Shown here: piece by piece, positions 14,297 to 36,038 of the stretch
Layout of the letters: each line of letters opens with the position of its first letter
How positions within the stretch are numbered: the first letter of the stretch is position 1
NCBI RefSeq assembly: GCF_005405185.1
Contig: NZ_BJDO01000004.1
Span: forward strand, 47,028-111,027
DNA length: 64,000 nt
Source: Secundilactobacillus hailunensis
Lineage (GTDB): Bacteria; Bacillota; Bacilli; Lactobacillales; Lactobacillaceae
Direction of reading: 5' to 3'
The notes under the pieces: model-generated
Databases searched by the model: none
Told to the model about the DNA's origin: nothing
What the model saw: the letters and a program-made list of their open reading frames with translations, nothing else
Made by a program: the position numbers and the translations under genes

Positions 14297-14352
14297 CTTG
14301 CTTTTTTGAAGTTTTCCCCGTACAATTGGGCTAAATAATTAAATAAGTGGTT

Positions 14353-14468
14353 CATCTTCAGGGCAGGGTGTAATTCCCGACCGGCGGTAACAGTCCGCGA
14401 CCTACTCCTCGAGTAGTTGATTCGGTGTAATTCCGATACCGACAGTAAAGTCTGGTATAAAGAAGATT
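14353..14468 (+). ncRNA. FMN riboswitch (RFN element)
   Basis: The conserved RFN core is present: GGGCAGGGTG-TAATTCCCGACCGGCGGT near 14360-14388, a variable arm (CTACTC/GAGTAG) at 14402-14415, then TTCGGTGTAATTCCGATACCGACAG and the closing strand. The P1 helix is CATCTTC (from 14353) with GAAGAT(T)G at its end. It controls ribU directly downstream; FMN binding should switch transcription off through the terminator that follows. Confidence 0.97.
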
Positions 14469-14490
14469 GGGTTAACACAAATTAGTGTCA

Positions 14491-30365: not shown

Positions 30366-30394
30366 TTGACGAATTATGAAAATATGATTATAGT
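30366..30394 (+). promoter_or_regulatory. Promoter of the liv leader and operon
   Basis: TTGACG (30366-30371) and TATAGT (30389-30394) are separated by exactly 17 bases, giving a start near 30401, 40 bases before the leader-peptide ATG. Confidence 0.8.
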
Positions 30395-30440
30395 TATTGC
30401 ATTCACCAAGTTAAAAAATTCTGACAGGAGGTTACACAAC

Positions 30441-30545
30441 ATGACAAATTCAGCCATTCAACAATTCAACCAACAATTTAACGTAACCTCTGTAAGTCAG
30501 AGTTTAGTCTTATTATTAAAATCCAAGGACGCAACGATTAGCTAG
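30441..30545 (+). CDS. Leader peptide of the liv operon attenuator
   Basis: A 34-codon open frame starts at an ATG placed 8 bases after AGGAGG, a very strong ribosome binding site. It contains the run Leu-Val-Leu-Leu-Leu (codons TTA GTC TTA TTA TTA at 30504-30518), plus Val codons at 30483 and 30492 and Ile codons at 30456 and 30537, and stops at TAG (30543-30545). It lies between a good promoter and a U-tailed terminator, 200 bases before livJ. This is the classic layout of a ribosome-mediated attenuation leader for branched-chain amino acids. The peptide itself probably has no function beyond being translated. Confidence 0.8.
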   Translation: MTNSAIQQFNQQFNVTSVSQSLVLLLKSKDATIS

Positions 30546-30662
30546 TAGCTTAGCCTACTAATTAAATTCAGTTGAGCCCTTATTTATGTATTTTAATGAT
30601 GAGGGCTTGATGATCAAATTCTGACTTTAGACCTCATTCATTAAATTGAATGAGGCTTTTTT
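30494..30662 (+). promoter_or_regulatory. Attenuator: long-range helix, antiterminator and terminator of the liv operon
   Basis: Five pairings can be seen. P1: AAGTCAGAGTTT (30494-30505, ending at the first Leu codon) with AAATTCTGACTT (30616-30627), 12 bp with one G-U. A hairpin TAGTAG/CTACTA (30543-30560) covers the stop codon. P2: AGCCCT (30575-30580) with AGGGCT (30602-30607). Antiterminator: 30592-30604 (TTTAATGATGAGG) with 30632-30645, 13 bp with one bulged base. Terminator: CCTCATTCA (30632-30640) with TGAATGAGG (30647-30655), 9 bp perfect, then CTTTTTT. The antiterminator and terminator exclude each other; P1 and the antiterminator would form a pseudoknot and are also largely exclusive. 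Confidence 0.78.
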
Positions 30663-30749
30663 ATTGCTTTGACACGGGGAGGGAAGCTAGTCAGGCAAGT
30701 TATAGCAATACATATCAAATAAAACATATTCGGAAAGCAGGAGAAATTT

Positions 30750-31946
30750 ATGAAGAAATCAACGATCAAACGCATTACAGGATTCGCCGCTATCGCAATG
30801 TCAGCCGCAATTTTTGCAGGATGTACTACTGCTAAAACCACCACTCAGGGTAATGACCAAACTGGCAACACCGTCAAAATCGGGGTCAACATGGAGCTTT
30901 CCGGTGCTGCTGGCGGTTACGGCAACCAAATGAAACAGGGGATTCAGATGGCCACTAAAGAAATCAACAGCAAGGGCGGCGTAAACGTTAACGGGAAAAA
31001 GAAAAAGATCAAGCTGATCATCAAGGATGATAAGACTTCTACCAGTACATCCGCTTCGGTGGCCGCTCAACTGGTCAATAACGATAAGGTCAACGCTATT
31101 ATCGGGACCGCCACGACCAATGCCGGAACAGCAGCCATTCCCAACGAAACCAAAGCTAAAGTTCCAGCCTTGAGTCCATCCGCTACTGATCCCAACTTCA
31201 CTCTGCAAAAGGATGGCAAAGTTCAGCCATACGTCTTCCGGGCATGTTACCAAAACAACTTCCAAGGCGGTACCGGCGCCAAGTTCATTTACAATAATTT
31301 GAAAGCTAAGCGGGTTGCTGTTCTTGGTGACAACTCAACCGATTATGGAACTGGCCTTTCAAAGTCATTCAAACGGCAATTTAAGGGTAAGGTGGTTGAC
31401 ACCCAGTACTTCTCAGCTGGTGACAAAGATTTCAACGCCATTTTGACAGACTTTAAGAACAAGAAGATTGATGCCATCTACGCCCCAGGTTACTACTCTG
31501 AAATCGGCCTGATCATCAAGCAAGCCAGACAAATTGGGTTGAACGTCCCAATCGTTGGTTCTGATGGTATGGCAGACGCTAAGCTGGTCCAAATTGCCGG
31601 TGCCAAGAATGCTTCTAACATTTACTACACCACACCATTCTCCCAAACGGTGGCTAAGCAAAATCCAGTGGCAGTTAAATTCATGAACGCCTACAAAGCG
31701 CGTTACCACACCGACGCACCAACCTTCTCAGCCCTGGCTTATGACTCAACTTACATGATCAAGCAAGCTATCGAAAATGAGAAGTCAGCTAACTCCGTTA
31801 AGATTACCAAGGGCCTCGCAAACATCAAAGACTTCAACGGTGTTACCGGTAAGATCAGCATTGATGGTAAGCATGATGCCAACAAACCAATTGCCGTTGA
31901 ACATTTGAACAATGGTAAAGTTGTTGGTTCGACACAAATTAAATAA
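30750..31946 (+). CDS. livJ: Branched-chain amino acid ABC transporter substrate-binding lipoprotein
   Basis: This is the extracellular binding protein that captures Leu, Ile and Val for the LivHMGF importer. The 398-residue precursor has a lipoprotein signal with lipobox IFAGC and the lipidated Cys25, then a Thr/Gln-rich linker and a two-lobed periplasmic-binding fold of the LivJ type (VKIGVNMELSGAAGGYGNQMKQGIQMATKEIN; IGTATTNAGTAAIP; GDNSTDYGTGLSKSF). A CAGGAG ribosome binding site lies 9 bases before the ATG. It is the first gene after the attenuator and is separated from livH by a strong hairpin, a common way to make more binding protein than permease. Confidence 0.95.
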   Translation: MKKSTIKRITGFAAIAMSAAIFAGCTTAKTTTQGNDQTGNTVKIGVNMELSGAAGGYGNQMKQGIQMATKEINSKGGVNVNGKKKKIKLIIKDDKTSTSTSASVAAQLVNNDKVNAIIGTATTNAGTAAIPNETKAKVPALSPSATDPNFTLQKDGKVQPYVFRACYQNNFQGGTGAKFIYNNLKAKRVAVLGDNSTDYGTGLSKSFKRQFKGKVVDTQYFSAGDKDFNAILTDFKNKKIDAIYAPGYYSEIGLIIKQARQIGLNVPIVGSDGMADAKLVQIAGAKNASNIYYTTPFSQTVAKQNPVAVKFMNAYKARYHTDAPTFSALAYDSTYMIKQAIENEKSANSVKITKGLANIKDFNGVTGKISIDGKHDANKPIAVEHLNNGKVVGSTQIK

Positions 31947-32050: not shown

Positions 32051-32929
32051 TTGACAACACTCTTTCAACAACTGATAAACGGCCTGTCGCTGGGCAGTAT
32101 CTACGCGCTGCTGGCACTGGGCTACACCATGGTTTACGGCATCATCAAACTGATCAACTTTGCGCATGGTGACATTTACATGCTAGGCGCCTTTTGGGGC
32201 TACTACACCATTAATTATTGGCACTTTAATTTTATATTCGCTCTATTATCCGCAATGGTCGTCTGCGCGGCCAGCGGTGTGATCATCGAATACTTCGCTT
32301 ACCGGCCACTGCGCCACGCACCACGGATCACTGCTTTGATCACCGCAATTGGCGTTTCATATTTTCTGGAAAATGGTATGTCGTACCTCTACGGTGCTGA
32401 CACCAGAGACTTTCCTCAAGTGATCAAGCAGGTCAATTACAACCTGTGGGGCGTTCGGGTATCCAATATTCAAATTTTGATTCTCGTTACTGCTTGTCTC
32501 TTGATGATTCTGTTGCAGCTGATCATCAAGAAAACCAAAATGGGGCGGGCCATGCGGGCAGTTTCAGTTGATCCCGATGCTGCTGAATTAGTTGGTATCA
32601 ACATTAACCAAACGATTTCATTTACCTTCGCATTAGGCTCATCAATGGCTGGCGCAGCCGGTGTCTTGATTGGTCTGTACTACAACTCCATTGATCCACT
32701 GATGGGAATGACACCCGGTATCAAAGCCTTCGTTGCTGCCGTAGTTGGTGGGATCGGTTCCGTTCCAGGGGCTTCACTGGGTGGTTTCTTGATCGGTCTG
32801 CTGGAAACAGCTGTTCAATCGATTGGCCTTTCAGCCTACAAGGATGCCGCGGTTTATCTGGTCTTGATCATTATCCTGCTGGTATTGCCATCCGGAATCT
32901 TCGGTAAAAACGTCAAAGAAAAGGTCTAG
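32051..32929 (+). CDS. livH: Branched-chain amino acid ABC transporter permease LivH
   Basis: One of two membrane subunits of the importer. The 292-residue protein has about eight hydrophobic segments and the LivH family N-terminus (QQLINGLSLGSIYALLALGYTM-like, about 6-26) and the EAA-like cytoplasmic segment VGINI near 185-200. The start is TTG, 7 bases after AAAGGAGGG. livM begins one base after its stop codon. Confidence 0.95.
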   Translation: MTTLFQQLINGLSLGSIYALLALGYTMVYGIIKLINFAHGDIYMLGAFWGYYTINYWHFNFIFALLSAMVVCAASGVIIEYFAYRPLRHAPRITALITAIGVSYFLENGMSYLYGADTRDFPQVIKQVNYNLWGVRVSNIQILILVTACLLMILLQLIIKKTKMGRAMRAVSVDPDAAELVGININQTISFTFALGSSMAGAAGVLIGLYYNSIDPLMGMTPGIKAFVAAVVGGIGSVPGASLGGFLIGLLETAVQSIGLSAYKDAAVYLVLIIILLVLPSGIFGKNVKEKV

Positions 32930-33898
32930 GTGATGATTTTGAAAGCAAATTGGAAATACAATCTTTGCTGGCTCATTTTGATGGTCGCTGGCTTTTACTT
33001 GATGAACACGCTGATCTTAGTTGGCATCATCAATTCATTTTTGGAAAATATGATGGTCACTATTGGCATCAATATTATTCTAGCGGTTGGTCTGAACTTA
33101 GTGATCGGCTTTGCCGGTCAGTTTTCACTGGGTCACGCTGGTTTCATGGCGGTTGGGGCATATGCAACAGCCATCATGATCAGTAAAACACCCACAGCTG
33201 GTACCTTTTATATCTCAATCATCGTGGGAGTCATCGTCGCCATTATCGCAGCTTTAGTTGTGGGGATTCCCACACTGCGGTTACGCGGTGATTATCTAGC
33301 GATTGCTACGATGGGTGCTGCCGAAATTATTCGGATCATCATCAATAATCTGAAAATTACCAACGGGCCATCCGGTATGTTCAACATTCCCCAATTCGCC
33401 ACTTGGCCAGTGGTTTACATCATGGTCTGTGTGACAACGATTATTATCGTGAACTTTATTCATAGTCGCGGTGGCCGGGCTGCCTTAGCAGTCAGAGAAG
33501 ATGAAATTGCGGCTGAATCAATGGGCATCAACGTGTTCAAATGGAAACTGGCAGCGTTCGTTTTGGGTGCGGCAACGGCTGCCGTGGCTGGTTCCATGCA
33601 GGCCTCCTATCTGCAGACCATTGCCCCAAGTAATTTCAACATCATGGAATCCATCGCCATTTTGATCATCGTAGTCCTTGGCGGGGTTGGCAGTATCACG
33701 GGTAGCTTCGTCGCCGCTGGAATTCTAGGCGTGGTGGACGCAGCACTGCAAAACTTCGGTGCCCTGCGAATGGTGATCTACGCTTTGGTCTTGATCCTGA
33801 TCATGATCTTCAAGCCATCTGGCATCATGGGTGCTACGGAACTGTCATTTAAACGACTCTTTAATCGTAAAAATAAGAAAGTGGGTGCTAAATCATGA
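32930..33898 (+). CDS. livM: Branched-chain amino acid ABC transporter permease LivM
   Basis: The second membrane subunit of the importer. The 322-residue protein has about nine hydrophobic segments, the LivM signature GFAGQFSLGHAGFMAVGAYATA (about 62-83) split over two helices, and a Lys/Arg-rich end. The start is GTG at 32930 or the ATG at 32933, which follows directly; the ribosome binding site overlaps the end of livH. It overlaps livG by 4 bases (ATGA). Confidence 0.94.
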   Translation: MMILKANWKYNLCWLILMVAGFYLMNTLILVGIINSFLENMMVTIGINIILAVGLNLVIGFAGQFSLGHAGFMAVGAYATAIMISKTPTAGTFYISIIVGVIVAIIAALVVGIPTLRLRGDYLAIATMGAAEIIRIIINNLKITNGPSGMFNIPQFATWPVVYIMVCVTTIIIVNFIHSRGGRAALAVREDEIAAESMGINVFKWKLAAFVLGAATAAVAGSMQASYLQTIAPSNFNIMESIAILIIVVLGGVGSITGSFVAAGILGVVDAALQNFGALRMVIYALVLILIMIFKPSGIMGATELSFKRLFNRKNKKVGAKS

Positions 33899-34674
33899 CC
33901 AGTTTACTAAATGTCGAAGATCTAGTGAAGAATTTCGGCGGATTAACGGCTGTTTCCGATGTTAATATGCACCTCGACGATGACGAACTGGTTGCCCTGA
34001 TTGGGCCAAACGGAGCAGGGAAAACCACCCTGTTTAACCTGTTAACGGGCGTGATCGTGCCTAGTTCTGGTTCGATCACTTTCCGCGGCACTGACGGTAC
34101 TATTTCGTTGAACGGGATGAAGGCTTATAAAATCGCTAACTTGGGTATGGCCAGAACGTTTCAAAACATCCGTTTATTTAAGGAGTTAAGTGTCTTGGAT
34201 AATGTATTGATTGCCATGACCGCTCACTATAAAGAAGACTTTTTTCAATCGGTTTTCCGACTGCCAAGATTTTATAAAACAGAGAGCCAGATCCGCAAAG
34301 AAGCTATTGAACTGCTTAAAATCTTTGAGCTTCAGAATGACTTGGATAAATTAGCCAAGAACTTACCCTATGGGATTCAAAGACGCCTGGAGATCGTTCG
34401 GGGCTTGGCCATGAAGCCGAAAGTGCTGTTTCTCGATGAACCAGCTGCTGGAATGAATCCGGAAGAAACGGCAGATTTGACCCGCTTGATTCGTCAAGTT
34501 CAGCGGGACTTTCACATTACCGTACTGCTGATTGAACATGATATGTCACTGGTCATGAACCTAGCCTCGAGAATCTACGTGTTGGATCATGGGTCATTAC
34601 TAGCGGAAGGGACTCCAACGGAAATTCAGCAAAATAAGGCAGTTATCAAAGCCTACTTGGGCGAGGAGGCGTAA
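33895..34674 (+). CDS. livG: Branched-chain amino acid ABC transporter ATPase LivG
   Basis: One of two ATPase subunits that drive import. The 259-residue protein has Walker A GPNGAGKT at 37-44, a LivG-type insertion with FQNIRLFKELSVLDNVLIA, the signature segment LPYGIQRRLEIVRGLA and Walker B VLFLDEPAAGMNPEE; the PYGxQRRLE form of the signature is usual for LivG. It starts within the livM stop and is followed 2 bases later by livF. Confidence 0.96.
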   Translation: MTSLLNVEDLVKNFGGLTAVSDVNMHLDDDELVALIGPNGAGKTTLFNLLTGVIVPSSGSITFRGTDGTISLNGMKAYKIANLGMARTFQNIRLFKELSVLDNVLIAMTAHYKEDFFQSVFRLPRFYKTESQIRKEAIELLKIFELQNDLDKLAKNLPYGIQRRLEIVRGLAMKPKVLFLDEPAAGMNPEETADLTRLIRQVQRDFHITVLLIEHDMSLVMNLASRIYVLDHGSLLAEGTPTEIQQNKAVIKAYLGEEA

Positions 34675-34676
34675 TT

Positions 34677-35387
34677 ATGGCAATGCTTGAAGTAAAAGAT
34701 CTCGCCGTGAACTACGGTGTGATCAACGCAGTGAAGGGCGTTAGTTTTCACATCAATGAAGGCGAAATTGTGTCTTTGATCGGCGCTAACGGTGCTGGTA
34801 AAACAACGATCCTAAAAACGATTTCCGGGCTGTTAAAGCCGGTCAGCGGCACGATCACCTATGAGGACAACCCCATCCAAAAATACAAGGCGCCGAAAAT
34901 CGTGGCAGCCGGGATCTCACAAGTGCCAGAAGGCCGGCATATTTTCGCCGGTATGTCTGTGCGGGAGAACCTGCAGATGGGCGCTTTTTTACAAAATAAC
35001 CGTGCTGAGATCACTAACAGTTTTGAAACGGTGTATGCCCGTTTTCCAGTACTGAAGGAACGGATCAATCAGGATGCGGCAACGTTATCCGGTGGTGAAC
35101 AGCAGATGTTAGCCATGGGCCGGGCACTGATGTCTAAGCCCAAGTTATTACTGCTAGACGAGCCTTCAATGGGGTTAGCACCGATTTTTATTAACGAAAT
35201 TTTTGAAATCGTTAAGGCTATCAAAGAGCAGGACACCACGGTACTTTTGATCGAACAAAACGCGAAAAAAGCATTGTCGATTGCTGATCGTGGCTACGTT
35301 CTGGCCAGTGGCAAGGTGAAGATGACGGGCACTGGTCAGGAACTGCTGGCTAATCAAGATGTCCAAAAAGCATACCTAGGAGGTTAG
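34677..35387 (+). CDS. livF: Branched-chain amino acid ABC transporter ATPase LivF
   Basis: The second ATPase subunit. The 236-residue protein has Walker A GANGAGKT at 36-43, VPEGRHIFAGMSVRENLQMG (a LivF hallmark), signature LSGGEQQMLAMGRALM and Walker B LLLLDEPSMGLAP. The ribosome binding site GAGGAGG lies in the last codons of livG. The CBS-ACT gene follows 3 bases after its stop. Confidence 0.96.
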   Translation: MAMLEVKDLAVNYGVINAVKGVSFHINEGEIVSLIGANGAGKTTILKTISGLLKPVSGTITYEDNPIQKYKAPKIVAAGISQVPEGRHIFAGMSVRENLQMGAFLQNNRAEITNSFETVYARFPVLKERINQDAATLSGGEQQMLAMGRALMSKPKLLLLDEPSMGLAPIFINEIFEIVKAIKEQDTTVLLIEQNAKKALSIADRGYVLASGKVKMTGTGQELLANQDVQKAYLGG

Positions 35388-35390
35388 ATA

Positions 35391-36038
35391 ATGAGTGTTG
35401 CAGATTACATGACAGCGAAGGTCATCGCTGTTTCACCAGAAACGAAGGTCAACATCGCTATTAATATGATGAAGGACCATCAGATCCACCGGTTACCAGT
35501 GATTGATGGCGACCAATTAGTCGGAATCGTAACGGAAGGCATCATTCGCGCAGCGTCACCGTCTAAAGCGACTAGTCTATCGATTTATGAAGTTAACTAC
35601 CTCTTAAATAAAATGACCGTGGCAGATATTATGGAAAAAGATGTCAAAACGATTTCCCAAGATGCTCAGTTAGAGGATGCCATTTCGATGATGCGTCACC
35701 ACGATATTGGTGTTTTACCGGTCGTGGATGGGGCCCAAGTGGTGGGAATCATTACCACGAATGATATTCTTGATGGGTTCTTGGATATTACAGATTACTT
35801 TGTGGATGCCACCGTGGTGCAAGTTATGATTGATCATGACCGCACGGGTGTCATTTATGAAATTGGCAAACTCATGGCAGATAACGGCTTTAATATTCAA
35901 ACGTTGATTGTTACCCGTAACCTGGGTTCGATCATGATTGAAATGCACGTGGATAAAACAGCCGGCGACGGCGTTAAACAAGTGTTAGAGGATGCCGGCT
36001 ATTCAGTCCGTTTAGTTGTTAATCAACAAGTTAATTAG
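35391..36038 (+). CDS. CBS-domain pair plus ACT-like domain protein, last gene of the liv operon
   Basis: The 215-residue protein has two CBS motifs (about 1-60 and 75-130, with MTAKVIAVSPETKVNIAINMM and MEKDVKTISQDAQLEDAI-type units) that usually bind adenine nucleotides, followed by an ACT-like domain (about 140-210, DRTGVIYEIGKLMADNGFNIQTLIVTR), a fold that often binds amino acids. This is the AcuB-like architecture. It is soluble and its AGGAGG ribosome binding site lies in the end of livF, so it is made with the transporter. A role as a sensor or modulator of branched-chain amino acid import is an inference from domains and position. Confidence 0.88.
   Translation: MSVADYMTAKVIAVSPETKVNIAINMMKDHQIHRLPVIDGDQLVGIVTEGIIRAASPSKATSLSIYEVNYLLNKMTVADIMEKDVKTISQDAQLEDAISMMRHHDIGVLPVVDGAQVVGIITTNDILDGFLDITDYFVDATVVQVMIDHDRTGVIYEIGKLMADNGFNIQTLIVTRNLGSIMIEMHVDKTAGDGVKQVLEDAGYSVRLVVNQQVN

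Follow-up and report, generated by a model that had tools for sequence, protein, structure and literature searches.

A predicted leucine leader-peptide attenuator upstream of the branched-chain amino acid importer operon of Secundilactobacillus hailunensis and its relatives in the Lactobacillaceae

T-box control of amino acid genes is known in lactobacilli. In the window analysed here (the whole stretch of 64 000 nucleotides of Secundilactobacillus hailunensis DNA), the operon for a LIV importer is preceded by a promoter, a short reading frame with a run of leucine codons and an intrinsic terminator, and the question is what decides whether RNA polymerase passes this terminator. The element was compared among relatives, folded with and without a ribosome and used to search other genomes. 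It is very probably a ribosome-mediated transcription attenuator, predicted to open the importer operon when leucyl-tRNA is short.

The gene order is thyA and a DHFR gene upstream, followed by livJ, livH, livM, livG, livF and a gene for a CBS-ACT protein. The main features are as follows.

30366-30394, + strand: sigma-70-type promoter, TTGACG-17-TATAGT (10/12 to consensus)
30426-30431, + strand: leader SD, AGGAGG (from the sequence)
30441-30545, + strand: leader peptide ORF, ATG at 30441, 34 codons and TAG at 30543-30545 (MTNSAIQQFNQQFNVTSVSQSLVLLLKSKDATIS)
30504-30518, + strand: control codons Leu-Val-Leu-Leu-Leu (TTA GTC TTA TTA TTA)
30632-30662, + strand: intrinsic terminator, 30632-30640 paired with 30647-30655 and followed by six T (30657-30662)
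30750-31946, + strand: livJ, branched-chain amino acid binding protein (Pfam PF13458; best NCBIfam match NF011933, below its cut-off)
32051-35387, + strand: livH, livM, livG and livF (Pfam PF02653 twice and PF00005 twice; PF12399 above cut-off in livG only)
35391-36038, + strand: CBS-ACT protein gene, next after livF (Pfam PF00571; PF01842 below cut-off)

The promoter, the AGGAGG, the 34-codon leader with Leu-Val-Leu-Leu-Leu and the 9-bp terminator with six Ts had been described in an earlier note on this DNA, and all were found in place. livJ of the window shares 97% identity with its S. silagei counterpart. The CBS-ACT protein (35391-36038) is a possible amino acid or nucleotide sensor for the LIV transporter. 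Elsewhere in the window an FMN riboswitch is present at 14350-14471 (105.5 bits).

Regions upstream of livJ were taken from 80 named loci (53 Lactobacillaceae and 27 Enterococcaceae) and 30 further loci. A scan for ORFs with a Leu run, combined with inspection, gave a leader and a terminator upstream of livJ at 46 of the 53 Lactobacillaceae loci; the loci without the element are L044 (at a contig end, with 48 bases upstream), L078-L082 and L093. The scan of the 27 Enterococcaceae loci gave a few Leu-containing ORFs and none with the motif of strand D (listed below). The 46 loci, the window copy and L011, L014 and L015 constitute the 50 elements used throughout. They were divided into 14 clade groups, comprising Secundi-, Lenti- (two), Liquori-, Lactiplanti-, Loigo-, Bombi- and Lacticaseilactobacillus, Ligilactobacillus (two single copies), Lactobacillus (two), Pediococcus and one more genus; L011 and L015 were assigned by sequence.

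Upstream of the leader, 41 of the 50 elements have a promoter-like pair that matches at 9/12 positions or more (one of the 50 was unscored). The best combination of SD and start codon within 140 nt, picked regardless of frame, was in frame with the Leu run in 50/50 elements, the chance being 1/3 per element and the elements being related and hence not independent. Conservation of the Leu run in related lactobacilli, which the earlier note had named as a check on its proposal, was borne out: Leu-Leu-Leu is kept in 49/50 elements, using TTA, TTG, CTA or CTC codons in every copy except L074. The codon sets are TTATTATTA (32 elements), TTGTTGTTG (10), CTACTACTA (4), CTCCTACTC (2), CTCCTACTA (1) and CTAATTATT (1), the last being that of L074, which encodes Leu-Ile-Ile and then a third Ile. 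The second codon position in the run is T in all 50. Beyond the Leu run, mostly with Ala or Val just before it, the leader peptides have little in common. No excess of third-position polymorphism was found in the 14 codons around the run within five clade groups (26, 18 and 21 polymorphisms at positions 1, 2 and 3; p = 0.47). Ligilactobacillus ruminis has two livJ-like loci with such leaders, L075 with Leu-Leu-Leu and L074 with Leu-Ile-Ile-Ile; the latter may represent a natural shift in specificity from Leu to Ile.

A second SD-like motif, GGAGG at 30678-30682 (motif 30676-30683), is situated 15 nt past the terminator and 67 nt ahead of livJ, and no start codon of its own was seen by eye. A GGAGG-type motif follows the terminator in 33/50 elements, compared with 3.1 expected from shuffled regions. 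On read-through transcripts it may serve as a ribosome site that stabilises the mRNA.

The predicted RNA strands of the switch are listed with the evidence for each (MFE, minimum-energy fold; z, own-versus-foreign partner test described below).

30416-30435, + strand: strand A, leader SD and 5' flank, partner of strand B (z = −8.7)
30483-30505, + strand: strand B, within the leader ORF, partner of strand A, would hide the SD (own-versus-foreign test, MFE)
30509-30522, + strand: strand 1, the Leu codons as RNA, protector, pairs with E at 30590-30603 (MFE of 46/50; z = −5.5)
30525-30535, + strand: strand C (AAGGACGCAAC, coding), pairs with D (z = −4.3)
30543-30560, + strand: stop-codon hairpin TAGTAG:CTACTA at the tip of C:D (MFE; varies among relatives)
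30571-30584, + strand: strand D (GTTGAGCCCTTATT), pairs with C or E (C:D and D:E duplex tests)
30590-30611, + strand: strand E, the switch strand, partners strand 1, D or G (duplex tests, pair counts)
30632-30645, + strand: strand G, terminator 5' arm and, with E, antiterminator 30592-30604:30632-30645 (z = −4.5; 92.3% of cells paired)
30647-30655, + strand: strand H, terminator 3' arm, pairs with G (z = −6.0)

In the window the minimum-energy form of A:B joins 30418-30425 to 30496-30503 and GGAGGTTAC to GTAACCTCT, the C:D helix is 30525-30535:30571-30581, and the antiterminator has 13/13 pairs with one bulge.

For the own-versus-foreign test, the duplex energy of each strand with its own partner was compared with that obtained with partners from other clades, using the 50 elements, the 14 groups and 2000 permutations. 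The z values were −8.7 for A:B, −5.5 for strand 1:E, −4.3 for C:D, −4.5 for D:E, −4.5 for E:G and −6.0 for G:H, with p = 0.0005, the smallest possible value, for all six. Among the control pairings, strand 1:G (z = −0.3), C:E (−0.1) and D:F (+2.0) gave no such advantage, whereas C:G gave z = −2.0 (p = 0.024), which counts against the attenuator reading. The own partner was the best one, ties included, in only 9 of the 14 groups for A:B, 6 for strand 1:E, 2 for C:D, 4 for D:E, 4 for E:G and 10 for G:H. The putative strands of the six helices fit own-clade partners better than foreign ones on average.

Pairs were counted in alignment A2, which contains 38 of the 50 elements; the MAFFT alignment A1 had misplaced the Leu codons of Lactobacillus. 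A2 leaves out close relatives of kept rows (L031, L036, L055, L056, L059, L064, L066 and L069) and copies that are too divergent (L072, L074, L075 and L077). Compensatory pairs were counted for strand 1:E (93.6% of cells paired, both-side change at 6/14 pairs), C:D (81.9%, 3/11 pairs, with two conserved mismatches), E:G (92.3%, 6/13 pairs) and G:H (98.8%, 2/9 pairs); D:E rests on the duplex test. The structure predicted for untranslated RNA had 91.1% of cells paired, 11/34 pairs changed on both sides and a covariation score of 0.209, compared with 34-50% of cells paired and scores of 0.036-0.096 when partners were slid by 1-3 columns. For C:D plus E:G the values were 87.6%, 9/24 pairs and 0.222, compared with 21-50% and 0.026-0.106 after sliding. 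Both structures exceeded 500/500 shuffles in cells paired, both-side-change cells and covariation score; the number of further pair types showed no excess, being reached by 123/500 and 194/500 shuffles.

The Leu codons can be followed both as codons and as a strand. At position 2 of the three codons, U stands opposite a G of strand E in 34, 26 and 8 of the 38 sequences and is never replaced by C, which would pair better with E but destroy Leu. At position 1, two of the three columns each include 4 sequences in which U has given way to C and the facing base is G; in the remaining column five sequences have C opposite A, which counts against a paired strand. From the absence of C at position 2 and the G-matched C at position 1, these nucleotides appear to be under two constraints at once, coding for Leu and pairing with E.

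Minimum-energy folds were calculated over the 50 elements with the RNA behind the ribosome left out. Without a ribosome, the full-length RNA gave A:B in 47/50, strand 1:E in 46/50 (missing from L014, L059, L072 and L077), C:D in 46/50 and G:H in 50/50. With the A-site at the first Leu codon and the transcript ending at the end of G, C:D formed in 43/50, E:G in 39/50 and D:E in 11/50; with the A-site at the second or third Leu codon and the transcript cut at G, E:G formed in only 26/50 and 21/50, respectively. Transcripts cut at G also gave E:G in 18/50 elements without a ribosome and in 16/50 when the ribosome had reached the stop codon. In the full-length RNA, a ribosome at this position gave D:E and G:H in 50/50 each. 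In attenuators in general, read-through is decided before the 3' strand of the terminator is made. Here the terminator was still present in 48/50 of the full-length folds with a ribosome stalled at the first Leu, and the switch must therefore be kinetic, decided before H is made. Strand C begins 7-8 nt past the Leu run in 47/50 elements. The C core is left untouched in 50/50 by a 29-nt footprint placed on the first Leu, and the same footprint at the stop codon covers at least three of the nine C core bases in 47/50.

The mechanism proposed from these folds is as follows. In untranslated RNA, A:B would hide the SD, strand 1:E would enclose C:D and G:H would form, so that transcription would end near 30662. 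Should a ribosome halt where the Leu run begins, it would mask strand 1 and leave C free; with D then occupied in C:D, E would meet G ahead of the synthesis of H and RNA polymerase would continue into livJ. When leucine is plentiful the ribosome would reach the stop codon and cover C, and D, thus freed, would capture E and let the terminator form. We infer from the modelled states that untranslated and fully translated leaders would terminate and that stalled leaders would read through. A:B would probably limit each RNA to one or a few leader initiations, or delay the first ribosome; its role is the least certain step of the mechanism. A version in which untranslated RNA is ON through A:B, C:D and E:G was dropped, since the unconstrained folds give strand 1:E in 46/50.

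By sequence, the liv element has the features by which a ribosome-mediated attenuator can be recognised. A predicted short ORF with an SD stands ahead of the structural gene and contains a run of codons for an amino acid linked to the operon (liv, leuA and leuB are found downstream of such leaders). An intrinsic terminator lies between this ORF and the gene, and the antiterminator excludes the terminator, E:G and G:H sharing G. A protector strand lies at the control codons, and its masking by a stalled ribosome was modelled.

Three other accounts of the element were weighed against this one. The earlier note had also proposed leucine attenuation by the ribosome, with a different protecting strand: 30494-30505, when free, would pair with 30616-30627 and thereby block the antiterminator, and a stalled ribosome would mask this 5' strand. 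Its attenuator type and its Leu run stand, as does its antiterminator 30592-30604:30632-30645, found where it was placed (z = −4.5, both-side change at 6/13 pairs). The idea of masking also holds; the strand concerned is that of the Leu codons, 30509-30522:30590-30603 (z = −5.5). Although 30494-30505 and 30616-30627 are complementary in the window, their own-partner advantage is not significant (z = −1.5, p = 0.067 over the 14 clade groups), and 30616-30627 is kept, by eye, in only part of Secundilactobacillus. For 30494-30505 the leader SD region is the partner with the stronger support (A:B, z = −8.7; 30418-30425:30496-30503 in the MFE). The comparison of helices among relatives that the note had suggested thus upholds the antiterminator and the terminator and fails for 30494-30505:30616-30627, which makes this version extremely unlikely. 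The note contained neither C:D (z = −4.3) nor D:E (z = −4.5), which together account for how the operon would be shut off once a ribosome has reached the stop codon, nor the leuA copy in the same genome.

That the RNA senses uncharged tRNA-Leu or leucine directly, as a T-box or another riboswitch with an incidental small ORF, would suit a genome with 40 T-box matches at E ≤ 0.001 (11 above cut-off), the high nucleotide conservation around the Leu codons and the lack of a third-position excess there. It is nonetheless very improbable: Leu-Leu-Leu is retained through several codon sets in all copies but one, that copy has Ile, and the SD and start codon are always in frame. Membership of the T-box class was rejected, the T-box covariance model (stem I and T-box sequence) being unmatched at the element either at gathering or at E ≤ 5. 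No Rfam family matched the element at gathering; the 10 matches at E ≤ 5 were all sub-threshold, with E values of 0.4 and above, and the best of them was to trpB, with 23.9 bits compared with a cut-off of 59. The third account has the leader translated and A:B as the main control, acting on leader initiation by hiding the SD or as an RNA polymerase pause hairpin, with leucine acting through general growth control only. A:B does have the strongest own-partner advantage of the helices; this account is nevertheless judged very unlikely, as it leaves unexplained the Leu run, the near-constant distance of 7-8 nt between the run and C, and the Ile codons of L074.

The attenuator reading was extended with a covariance model, R1, built from strand 1:E, C:D and G:H. 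In the window's own genome it found the livJ copy and a second place (L124, G000:C5, reverse strand; 51.6 bits, E = 5e-7) with the leader MTVQFNNNSTLATSLLALLL before leuA and then the apparent start of leuB. The LeuA behind this copy has 388 residues. Its relative L156 is 87% identical and matches the first three quarters of LeuA models only, so the LeuA of L124 seems to be without the C-terminal regulatory domain.

R1 matched at E ≤ 0.01 in 116 of 397 Lactobacillaceae genomes; over 295 genomes of the order, 10 had a match at E ≤ 1e-4, all of them in the same family. Besides the 30 best matches, 60 of the weaker ones were examined, for which the first gene was livJ in 28, leuA in 18, leuB in seven, Fe-ADH-like in two, oppA-like in one and none relevant in four. 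livJ and leuA were named by BLAST, L165, L176 and L207 by Pfam and NCBIfam, L180 by Pfam and the other leuB genes by eye. Matches L168, L190, L193 and L195 (36-48 bits) have no such leader and look like chance matches; the leader of the livJ match L196 has no Leu-Leu-Leu. The downstream genes liv, leuA, leuB and oppA-like fit leucine and were counted for the attenuator reading. The same leader type stands before the oppA-like gene of L207 (Pfam SBP_bac_5; Opp4A below cut-off) and, with Leu-Leu-Met-Leu, before the Fe-ADH-like gene of L176 and L189. Counting against a uniform switch, strand 1:E occurred in the MFE of only 15/25 leuA/leuB elements, so their switch may differ in some genera. In L162, L166 and other leuA/leuB elements of the FALLL type, the SD region (GGAGTCCTC) appears paired with strand C (GAGGACTC); the SD partner in this apparent variant of the switch would be C rather than the strand before the Leu run.

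A search for livJ-like genes (E ≤ 1e-50) in the 397 genomes gave 123 places, spread over 111 genomes; an element lies within 600 nt of at least 75 of these places. The remaining 48 include second copies and distant homologues. Among 13 of these that were inspected, six have a diverged Leu- or Ile-rich leader missed by the model (G228, G210, G314, G165, G275 and one of G094), the leader of G398 is doubtful, and six have no leader, one of these being at a contig end.

It is fairly likely that these elements form a Lactobacillaceae-wide leucine attenuator regulon that covers synthesis genes (leuA and leuB) as well as import genes (liv and in some cases opp). Its common design would be a single switch strand for which the Leu codons, D and the terminator arm compete, together with an SD-hiding helix, and the second L. 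ruminis copy would have been retuned from Leu-Leu-Leu to Leu-Ile-Ile-Ile. The read-out of ribosome position in three states (absent, stalled and finished) belongs to this family-wide reading and shares the likelihood given to the whole.

In the enterobacterial leu, his and trp attenuators the control codons lie in protector strand 1, antiterminator and terminator alternate, and starvation turns the operon on. The liv element shares the position of the codons and the alternating structures. It differs in that the influence of a ribosome at the stop codon would be passed on by a separate C:D/D:E pair and in an additional helix that would conceal the leader SD. Work on leucine-dependent premature termination is reportedly on record for livJ of E. 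coli. According to the available text of one account, the enterobacterial leuABCD leader has 28 residues with four Leu, and BCAA-rich leaders precede biosynthetic operons in S. aureus, Listeria and, by prediction, other Gram-positives (PMC6123439). The Leu-rich attenuator of S. aureus ilv-leu has a predicted response to leucine, with which selected mutants agree; as far as the available text describes it, it shares with the liv element a short leader ORF with Leu (and Ile) codons and a downstream terminator in a Gram-positive organism (PMC5794164). By the same description it controls biosynthesis, whereas the Secundilactobacillus element precedes an importer; its predicted antiterminator pairs with the U tail and leaves the terminator stem intact, whereas E pairs with the terminator 5' arm; and, unlike in ilv-leu, the Leu codons of the liv element are the protecting strand (PMC5794164). 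The leader predicted for the BCAA operon of Lactococcus lactis, as cited in the available text of PMC5794164 and PMC6123439, shares a BCAA-rich peptide and a terminator in a lactic acid bacterium and is set apart, on that description, by preceding biosynthetic genes rather than an importer. The livJ motif of Streptomyces is likewise a 5'-UTR element of a gene for a LIV-binding protein. It is described as a riboswitch candidate whose SD sits in an internal bulge of P1, and the available part of its description makes no mention of a leader peptide, by which the liv element is set apart (PMC11109978). Histidine leader peptides are reported in bacilli in a paper in whose main text, as available, the words livJ and leuA are absent (PMC2965389). 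Some branched-chain symporters of lactobacilli are under T-box control according to the available text of a T-box survey (PMC2494555). The genome of the window has its 40 T-box matches, yet its liv operon has a leader-peptide element.

Searches of open-access literature gave no report of leucine attenuation by a leader peptide for a LIV importer or in Lactobacillaceae, in agreement with the remark in the earlier note that such control of a LIV transporter in a lactobacillus was not known to be described. What is new is the predicted leucine leader-peptide attenuation of a LIV importer; such attenuation of biosynthetic operons is already known.

A predicted ribosome-read switch would control both the import and, through the leuA copy of this genome, the synthesis of leucine, and the covariance model finds members in many genera of the family. 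With their exchanged codons and compensating structural changes, the copies form a natural set of switches on which rules of attenuation could be tested, including a possible retuning from Leu to Ile, and the predicted switch may provide a way into the study of leucine uptake by bacteria of food and the gut.
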